A stretch of DNA of 25,219 nucleotides, from positions 1-25,219 of IMG/VR virus record IMGVR_UViG_3300043640_000069. One strand, 5' to 3'. Origin of the DNA: a virus. This document shows, piece after piece, positions 23,282 to 25,219 of this stretch. The notes under the pieces are model-generated. The model was given only the letters and a program-made list of their open reading frames with translations. It made no database searches and was not told the DNA's origin. The position numbers and the translations under genes were made by a program. Within the stretch, counting starts at the first letter, position 1. Every line of letters begins with the position of its first letter.

Positions 23282-23357
23282 GGTACGGGGTACGATTGTG
23301 TCCTCGGCCTTATAAACGCCGTGAGTTTATTTTAACCAAACTAAGGGGAGACCTACC
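23282..23357. other. Intergenic leader of the scaffold gene
   Basis: It holds a direct repeat GGGTACG-GGGTACG at its start, the terminator-like hairpin at 23303-23333 and the RBS AAGGGGAGACCTACC. I see no promoter with two good boxes. Confidence 0.4.
23303..23333 (+). terminator. Weak terminator-like hairpin
   Basis: CTCGGC (23303-23308) pairs imperfectly with GCCGTGAG (23318-23325), followed by TTTATTTT. It could partly reduce transcription into the scaffold gene or be only a processing hairpin. The stem is weak. Confidence 0.3.
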
Positions 23358-24155
23358 ATGGAATTCGATATTGAAAAAGTATTAGAGGTTGACAGCCTTG
23401 ACGCCGTGCCGGAAGCATTCCGCCCGCTGTATGCCGCGAAGGATAATAAGTTCGTTCTCGGTGAAACATTCAAGCCGACCGCTGGTGCAATTAGCGCACT
23501 GAGCAAAAGCATGAAGGCCATTCGTGATGAGAACAAAGGCTTGAAGGGCAGCAAGATCGACCTGAGTGAACTGGCTGAGTTCGGCGCTACCCCTGCGGAA
23601 ATCAAAGCGGCTGTTGCTGCTAAGATTGATGAGCTCACGGGTGAGCTGGCCAAAGGCAAAGACGGCAAGATCAACCTTGAGAAGATCAAGCAAGAGCTGG
23701 CCGCTGGCCATGCCAAAGAACTGGAGAAGGGTAATGCCAAGGTCACGGCGCTTACCAACCAGCTCTATGACTTGCTGGTGACGCAACAGGCCACGTCCGC
23801 CGTCGCTGAAGAAAAAGGTGTGCCTGAACTTTTGATGCCCTTCCTCAAGGACAAGGTAAAGGTCATCGAAGAAGACGGTAAGTTCAATGTGTTTGTAGTG
23901 GATGCAGCCGGTGATCGCCGGTATAGCGGCACGACTGGCGCACCAATGAGCGTGAAGGAACTGGTGAAGGAGATGAAGGCGAATGAGAAATACGCTCGCC
24001 TGTTTGACAGCACCACCAACACGGGCGGCGGTAAGCAAAGCCAAAGCAGCCAGCAAACTAAAACCACCACGACCACGGGTGAGCTGACTGGCATTGCAAA
24101 GATCAAGGCTGGCCTGGATAAAGGTCAGGCGAAGCAGAACCTGAACAATAACTAG
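23358..24155 (+). CDS. Scaffold protein
   Basis: A 265-residue, Lys/Glu-rich, mostly helical protein located just before the major capsid gene, where tailed phages place the scaffold. The first part (residues 1-40) resembles the short ordered start of GP20-type scaffolds (AFRPLYAAKDNKFVLGE). Residues 50-130 are coiled coil (LAKGKDGKINLEKIKQELAA). The tail is a Gly/Ser/Gln/Thr-rich linker (TTNTGGGKQSQSSQQTKTT) leading to a basic helix (IAKIKAGLDKGQAKQNL), probably the capsid-binding end. AAGGGGAGACC precedes ATG 23358. Confidence 0.8.
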   Translation: MEFDIEKVLEVDSLDAVPEAFRPLYAAKDNKFVLGETFKPTAGAISALSKSMKAIRDENKGLKGSKIDLSELAEFGATPAEIKAAVAAKIDELTGELAKGKDGKINLEKIKQELAAGHAKELEKGNAKVTALTNQLYDLLVTQQATSAVAEEKGVPELLMPFLKDKVKVIEEDGKFNVFVVDAAGDRRYSGTTGAPMSVKELVKEMKANEKYARLFDSTTNTGGGKQSQSSQQTKTTTTTGELTGIAKIKAGLDKGQAKQNLNNN

Positions 24156-24178: not shown

Positions 24179-24238
24179 AGATAGCGGCGGGTGAGTAAAG
24201 CTACATTCATAATTGTGGTTTTATAACCGCCGTTATCT
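24179..24238 (+). ncRNA. Long imperfect mRNA hairpin before the capsid gene
   Basis: The outer stem pairs AGATAGCGGCGG (24179-24190) with CCGCCGTTATCT (24227-24238), 12 pairs with one G-T wobble. The inner stem pairs TAAAGCTACA (24196-24205) with TGTGGTTTTA (24214-24223), 10 pairs with two wobbles. A GTGAG/TAA internal loop separates them and the apical loop is TTCATAAT. It has no T run after it and resembles an RNase III-type substrate or stabilising hairpin rather than a terminator. Confidence 0.7.
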
Positions 24239-24241
24239 CTG

Positions 24242-24329
24242 CCCCCATAAGGTGATCTGAGGGGGTTTACGTCCGCTACCATAAGGTGATCTGAGGTAGC
24301 AATCTCTCCGTACGGTGATCTGAGGAGGG
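24242..24329 (+). ncRNA. Three tandem hairpins with a shared 14-nt loop
   Basis: Hairpin 1: CCCCC (24242-24246) pairs with GGGGG (24261-24265). Hairpin 2: GCTACC (24275-24280) with GGTAGC (24295-24300). Hairpin 3: CTCTCC (24304-24309) with GGAGGG (24324-24329), one wobble. All loops are 14 bases: ATAAGGTGATCTGA twice and GTACGGTGATCTGA once. Stem sequences differ completely yet stay paired while the loop is kept, the mark of a selected RNA element. The region lies 62 bases before the major capsid start. The loop core AGGTGATC is complementary to the 3' end of 16S rRNA. The function is not known to me. Confidence 0.8.
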
Positions 24330-24390
24330 CTGATGCTTAGTATAACAGGCGTTGTGTCCATACCGATTTAACCTAATAGGAGATTCCAAC

Positions 24391-25219
24391 ATGACTTCAG
24401 TTACCCTCGCAGAATCCGCCAAACTTGCTCAGGACGAGCTGGTTGCTGGCGTTATTGAACAAATCATCACCGTCAACCAGATGTTCGAAGTATTACCGTT
24501 TGATTCCATCGACGGTAACAGCCTCGCATACAACCGTGAAAACGTCCTCGGCGATGTTCAGGTTGCTGGTGTAGGTGACAGCATTACCGCTAAGGGTGCT
24601 GCAACGTTCACCAAGAAGAACGTCAACCTGACCAAAATCATCGGCGATGCGGAAGTTGACAACATGATTCAGGCCACTCGTTCCGGCAACGGCAACGATC
24701 AGAAGGCTGTTCAGGTTGCCAGCAAAGCTAAATCCTGCGGACGTAAGTATCAGGACATGCTCATCAATGGTAGCGGTTCGGCTAACGAATTCGAAGGCCT
24801 CATCCTGCTTTGCGCCAGCGACCAAAAGGTCGACACTGGTGGCAACGGTAGCGCCCTGAGCTTTGAAATCATGGACAACCTCATCGATCTGGTGACCGAT
24901 AAAGACGGCAGCGTGGATTACATTGTAATGCCCGCCCGTACTCGCCGCGCTTACCGTGCATTGCTCCGCGCCCTTGGTGGCACGAGCATGAACGATGTGG
25001 TAGTAATGCCGTCCGGCGGAAAAGTGGAAGCCTATAACGGCGTCCCCGTATTCCGTAACGACTACATTCCTACCGACCAGACCAAAGGTGGATCCAGCAA
25101 CACCACGACCATCTTCGCCGGTACGCTGGATGATGGTAGCCGCTCGCATGGCATCGCGGGTATTACCGCCGCCAATGCAGCCGGTATCAACGTGGTTGAA
25201 GTAGGTGAAAAAGAAACGG
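24391..25219 (+). CDS. Major capsid protein, 3' end missing
   Basis: 276 codons are visible without a stop and the gene continues past the window. The start is ATG 24391 with TAGGAGA eight bases upstream. The sequence shows a helical N-arm (LAESAKLAQDELVAGVIEQI), strand-rich parts (AYNRENVLGDVQVAGVGDS), a middle helix with many polar residues, and PSGGKVEAYNGVPVFRNDYI with a Gly/Ser loop (TKGGSSNTTT), in keeping with an HK97-like major capsid fold. It lies directly after the scaffold. The codon choice is more C-ending than in the early genes, as often seen in the most expressed phage gene. The main shell subunit is the best assignment. Confidence 0.9.
   Translation, partial: MTSVTLAESAKLAQDELVAGVIEQIITVNQMFEVLPFDSIDGNSLAYNRENVLGDVQVAGVGDSITAKGAATFTKKNVNLTKIIGDAEVDNMIQATRSGNGNDQKAVQVASKAKSCGRKYQDMLINGSGSANEFEGLILLCASDQKVDTGGNGSALSFEIMDNLIDLVTDKDGSVDYIVMPARTRRAYRALLRALGGTSMNDVVVMPSGGKVEAYNGVPVFRNDYIPTDQTKGGSSNTTTIFAGTLDDGSRSHGIAGITAANAAGINVVEVGEKET

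Follow-up and report, generated by a model that had tools for sequence, protein, structure and literature searches.

GNGAY pentaloop hairpins in the capsid and scaffold leaders of tailed phages, a candidate protein-read RNA operator

Comparison of leader sequences indicates that a large group of tailed phages tags the mRNAs of the major capsid protein (MCP) and of the head scaffolding protein with small RNA hairpins presenting a GNGAY pentaloop. Documented below are the RNA structure that is conserved, where it lies and the two genes it targets. The hairpins appear to be a docking site, so far undescribed, at which a protein would set the amounts of capsid and scaffold. We give roughly even chances to the reading that they form a cis-acting RNA operator of tandem units, recognised by a protein, which would coordinate the synthesis of the two.

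The window is the whole stretch of DNA analysed, a virus record of 25.2 kb (25,219 nucleotides). It carries a head module, comprising the small and large terminase subunits, portal, head morphogenesis protein, scaffold and MCP, and among named phages it is closest to those of Pseudomonas and others of the Mesyanzhinovviridae type. The features of interest are as follows.

23358 to 24155, plus strand: head scaffolding protein gene (PHROG 206, E 1.6e-41)
24179 to 24238, plus strand: long stem-loop with a 12-bp outer stem, found by folding, directly 5' of the tandem hairpins
24242 to 24265, plus strand: hairpin 1, stem CCCCC/GGGGG (24242-24246/24261-24265), inner AG/CT, GTGAT pentaloop at 24252-24256
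24275 to 24300, plus strand: hairpin 2, stem GCTACC/GGTAGC (24275-24280/24295-24300), inner AG/CT, GTGAT pentaloop at 24286-24290
24304 to 24329, plus strand: hairpin 3, stem CTCTCC/GGAGGG (24304-24309/24324-24329) with one G-U pair, GTGAT at 24315-24319
24377 to 24382, plus strand: Shine-Dalgarno-like TAGGAG of the MCP gene, found by inspection
24391 to 25219, plus strand: MCP gene, running off the window (PHROG 212, E 3.5e-67)

The three hairpins occupy the gap between scaffold and MCP genes and end 61 nt 5' of the MCP ATG. A preliminary description reported them as three tandem hairpins before the MCP gene with different stems and a nearly invariant 14-nt loop, and this is confirmed: the stems are exact, and the loops read ATAAGGTGATCTGA in two copies and GTACGGTGATCTGA in one, which differs at two positions. 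GGTGATCTGAGG occurs exactly three times in the record, always within these hairpins, and they are the only hairpin pairs in the window whose 14-nt loops are at least 11/14 alike and which stand no more than 60 nt apart. Within the "14-nt loop", GTGAT is closed by AG/CT, with an internal loop beneath; in hairpin 3 a single G-C pair and a C.U mismatch close it. Folded in isolation, the 88 nt retain all three hairpins in the minimum free energy structure, with the inner 2-bp AG/CT closing GTGAT in copies 1 and 2. When more flank is folded, hairpin 3 competes with an alternative fold, and a 111-nt stretch has no excess stability over its shuffles (z 0.5). The evidence for function is therefore comparative and not thermodynamic. 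No consensus promoter was found in the window, and no canonical hairpin precedes its own scaffold gene. At 23312-23330, 5' of that gene, ATAAAC-GCCGTGA-GTTTAT forms a hairpin of another kind whose loop has 7 nt; it is possibly a diverged form. A hairpin ahead of the tandem ones was also seen by eye in several relatives.

Upstream regions were taken from 50 viral contigs encoding MCP relatives. Their leaders show the loops GTGAT, GCGAT, GTGAC or GAGAT on ever-changing stems, for example AGG-GTGAT-CCT, AGC-GTGAT-GCT and CCAGA-GCGAT-TCTGG. The 14-nt block is best taken for a local version of a shorter signal, the GNGAY pentaloop hairpin, with the consensus GN-GNGAY-N'C and an otherwise free stem. 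The block itself, as NNA[AC]GGTGATCTGA, recurs before the MCP genes of two other loci (L087 and L088, MCP about 62% identical) on wholly different outer stems, which makes it a real sub-form and not a private repeat. A scan of all collected loci found the block repeated nowhere beyond the window and these two, and an exact 14-mer search of IMG/VR returned 54 contigs with a single match in each. For the 14-nt loop proposed earlier this is a refinement: the conserved unit is the pentaloop within it. The pentaloop follows from sequence and pairing; its probable fold, by inference, is GNRA-like with the final base flipped out. Pentaloops that depart from the GNRA fold by one turned-out base are known protein contacts (PMC12550061).

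The first batch of 41 non-redundant leaders contained 42 GNGAY hairpins with at least three Watson-Crick pairs, in 28 leaders, against 1.6±1.2 in shuffles; the motif was noticed in this same batch, whose statistics were run afterwards with several stem thresholds and loop classes examined. GNGAY was enriched about 25-fold and the other loop classes (GNAAN, CNGAY, 4-nt loops) were near chance, and an unbiased ranking of pentaloops placed GTGAT, GCGAT, GTGAC and GAGAT first. In a second batch, for which the loop class was fixed beforehand and whose members were free of BLAST matches (70 nt, 70% identity) to the first, 30 of 35 leaders matched, their MCPs belonging to the same family. Under a relaxed energy rule, a stable GNGAY hairpin is found in 86% of 80 non-redundant MCP leaders, compared with 7% of shuffles. 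The recurrence upstream of capsid genes on which the preliminary description had staked its reading is thus present at the level of sequence, and its proposal of selection on an RNA hairpin presenting a specific loop is supported by the different stems on which GNGAY recurs in relatives.

Leaders lacking a GNGAY hairpin include that of an Acinetobacter phage whose MCP is 64% identical. In Chloroflexi-associated relatives (MCP 30–46% identical) none was found upstream of the matched part, most matches starting past the start codon. GGG-GGGATA-CCC occurs twice in the MCP leader of Brevundimonas phage Delta (L115); its loop of six bases includes GGGAT and is possibly a motif variant. The loci L184–L195, on contigs assigned to Flavobacteriales, Anaerolinea, Microbacteriaceae and others, encode MCP relatives of 56–75% identity; the contigs are probably phage sequences binned with these MAGs. 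Rfam gave no match in the window at the gathering score; for YuA and four other loci it gave one tRNA only. The best weak match had E 0.58. The papers searched contained no description of such hairpins in leaders of this phage family.

The least circular test of pairing picks sites by their loop letters alone. At such sites in MCP leaders the first flanking pair forms in 82% of cases, against 42% with partners shuffled; for the second pair the figures are 84% and 60%, and a weaker excess extends to roughly the sixth. The relatedness of the leaders is not fully corrected in these shuffles. Scaffold-leader sites show the same excess, which is absent near the loop in MCP coding sequence. In the alignable YuA clade there are compensatory changes from G-C to C-G and from A-U to C-G. 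RNAalifold found two pairs changed on both sides in this clade, with a small and slightly unfavourable overall covariation term. Sites that are tandem and palindromic might also be a DNA-level operator or iteron repeats, with the palindromes accidental. This is disfavoured, and we regard it as hardly credible, since few loop letters are common to the sites, the paired arms vary freely, and the sites are always oriented as in the mRNA.

When GNGAY hairpins with at least four pairs were mapped around 95 loci, just two peaks appeared within 3 kb, on the plus strand only: one at the MCP leader, the other about 1.0–1.2 kb upstream, at the scaffold leader. No comparable peak was found on the reverse strand or for control loops. 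Tandem pairs number 98.6 per 100 kb in the MCP and scaffold zones, 0.4 elsewhere in the same loci and 0.1 in unrelated viral contigs. Under a strict rule, both sites are present in only 31 of the 81 loci with enough flank. The median end of the last hairpin is at -14 from the scaffold start codon, at the Shine-Dalgarno sequence, and at -52 from that of MCP. The role first suggested, that of raising the capsid gene far above its neighbours, is not simply correct, because the same hairpins precede the scaffold gene.

Scans of 13 phage genomes (three partial) likewise placed tandem pairs mainly at the leaders of MCP and scaffold. PaMx28 and Donnerlittchen have their scaffold gene roughly 4 kb upstream; it carries its own hairpin pair, which ends at the Shine-Dalgarno sequence. 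In both phages opposite-strand genes precede MCP, whose leader has a hairpin pair in PaMx28 and the same kind of hairpins in Donnerlittchen. This arrangement speaks against intercistronic processing or a scaffold-terminator role. A third tandem site in these two phages, before a 313-aa protein, is probably a coding coincidence, because in both it lies inside the preceding reading frame. Separately, in G004 (the record behind L078), at about 35024–35043 on the minus strand, a tandem pair (GCCG-GTGAT, GGC-GTGAC) immediately precedes the ribosome site of an ORF of 461 aa, which by eye resembles a ParB-domain DNA methyltransferase; it may be a third target or chance.

Positions and loop letters also bear on two other roles. 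The hairpins could be passive stabilisers, 5' structures slowing the decay of two highly expressed mRNAs, and indeed they form stable folds in leaders of abundant structural proteins. We think this unlikely: a stabiliser should tolerate any stable loop, whereas the enrichment is confined to GNGAY, and the position at the scaffold Shine-Dalgarno sequence also argues against it. The other role is ribosome loading, in which the loop would pair with the 3' end of 16S rRNA, AGGTGATC being complementary to GATCACCT. The window loops contain this 7–8-nt complement, and the most enriched 6-mers are GTGATC and GGGTGA. However, GGTGATC is present in only 19 of 107 hairpins, the closing pair is as often C-G (39) as G-C (38), and GCGAT and GAGAT loops break the complement and keep the stem. 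Ribosome loading by such pairing, one of the roles raised in the preliminary description, is accordingly disfavoured and very improbable.

Promoter-like sequences were found in 17 of 80 leaders, against 4.7 expected, and strict terminators in 14 of 80 loci between scaffold and MCP and in 16 of 73 after MCP. MCP would therefore often be its own transcription unit, which leaves room for a role in antitermination or anti-pausing, the RNA acting on RNA polymerase directly, as in HK022 put, or through a peptide, as with lambda N on boxB. In keeping with this, the first hairpin starts a median of 27 nt past the -10 element in the 14 loci with a consensus promoter; N peptides read GNRA-like pentaloops in lambdoid boxB RNAs (PMC12550061); and put consists of two stem-loops, putL lying just after a promoter (PMC9378689). 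Against it, boxA (CGCTCTTTA) is not enriched, with at least 7 of 9 positions matched in 7 of 80 leaders versus 13.7 expected from shuffles, the sites end at the scaffold ribosome site, and in most genomes scanned other operons are not led by them. We consider antitermination a rather unlikely explanation, though one to be kept in mind.

In the tandem-operator reading that we prefer, each 5' leader would carry one to three tandem stem-loops, each presenting a GNGAY pentaloop, and a putative protein would read the loop and the top of the stem. On scaffold mRNA the last hairpin ends about 14 nt before the start codon, and because this position coincides with the Shine-Dalgarno sequence a bound protein should block ribosomes. 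On MCP mRNA, with the hairpin end about 50 nt upstream, the effect should be weaker or different. A single binding protein would in this way coordinate both partners of procapsid assembly. Protein binding, the effect on translation and the identity of the binder are what we infer.

Our leading guess is that the binder is made in the head module, as scaffold or MCP, which would give autogenous control; a host protein is also possible. The families present in all 14 genomes, searched from Ab18 reading frames, belong to the head and packaging module, and G004 lacks most of the replication genes seen in Ab18. A head-module binder is favoured because genomes sharing few replication genes have these families in common. 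No separate non-structural family was shared across all 14 genomes in this search, which would miss small divergent proteins. The predicted scaffold model had no PDB match at E<=0.001 and gave no lead to an RNA-binding fold, and the scaffold protein has no convincing sequence relative. We put forward, as a tentative possibility, that the scaffold or capsid protein of a dsDNA tailed phage represses both mRNAs by sequence-specific binding to their GNGAY pentaloop hairpins and so balances the two proteins, in an autogenous circuit for assembly that has no relation to the one in ssRNA phages.

The leaders might instead adopt a higher-order fold, for loop-receptor docking or ligand sensing, that needs no dedicated protein. 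GNRA-like loops generally dock into RNA receptors, and on inspection L055, L058, L080, L086, L090, L093 and others have more elaborate helices and a second shared hairpin. Simple two-hairpin leaders with no further conserved sequence are nevertheless common, and a receptor motif was not found, so that we judge this improbable. In the six loci named, the second hairpin is approximately GGCGNC-GNGAN-GNCGCGCC and follows the first, which suggests a larger leader structure in one subgroup.

To our knowledge, control of the scaffold:capsid ratio in tailed phages is poorly understood at the RNA level. A compact hairpin common to the scaffold and capsid genes across a phage family offers pull-downs and reporters a defined target, and may be one half of a new RNA-protein pair for biotechnology.

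Several known systems share parts of this arrangement. The lambdoid boxB RNAs (lambda, P22), read by N peptides, are likewise short stems in phage leader RNA, with a GNRA-like pentaloop of the kind predicted here; their pentaloops differ in sequence from GNGAY (GACAA in P22, for example), and they act with boxA on transcription ahead of early operons, whereas the hairpins described here stand before scaffold and capsid genes. HK022 put, compared by its published description, also has two adjacent leader stem-loops, with putL near the promoter. However, putL and putR share sequence, contact RNA polymerase directly and serve early operons, while conservation in our hairpins is limited to the loop and the second stem pair. 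Targets of ANTAR proteins (EutV, NasR, AmiR) resemble them in having two small tandem hairpins whose loop letters are conserved and whose stems are freer, and are defined by tandem hexaloops with A at position 1 and G at position 4 (PMC3369931). These overlap terminators of host operons, unlike the pentaloops here, which show no such overlap at the scaffold site; six-base loops are not enriched in the leaders, in contrast to five-base GNGAY.

The coat-protein operators of the ssRNA phages MS2 and PP7 are loop-presenting hairpins adjoining a ribosome site, at which the capsid protein is a translational repressor. A capsid protein as repressor is one version of the logic proposed here, but these phages have ssRNA genomes, an unrelated coat fold and other loops, and the operator is on the replicase gene. 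In P22, work by King and Casjens reportedly found that scaffolding synthesis is autoregulated post-transcriptionally by unassembled scaffold. This resembles the proposed circuit in that scaffold synthesis is controlled after transcription; we know of no RNA site defined for it. Because boxB, put, ANTAR targets and the ssRNA-phage operators share parts only, and Rfam has no family for them, we set the GNGAY hairpins apart and call them a putative loop-presenting RNA operator with a new loop and new targets.
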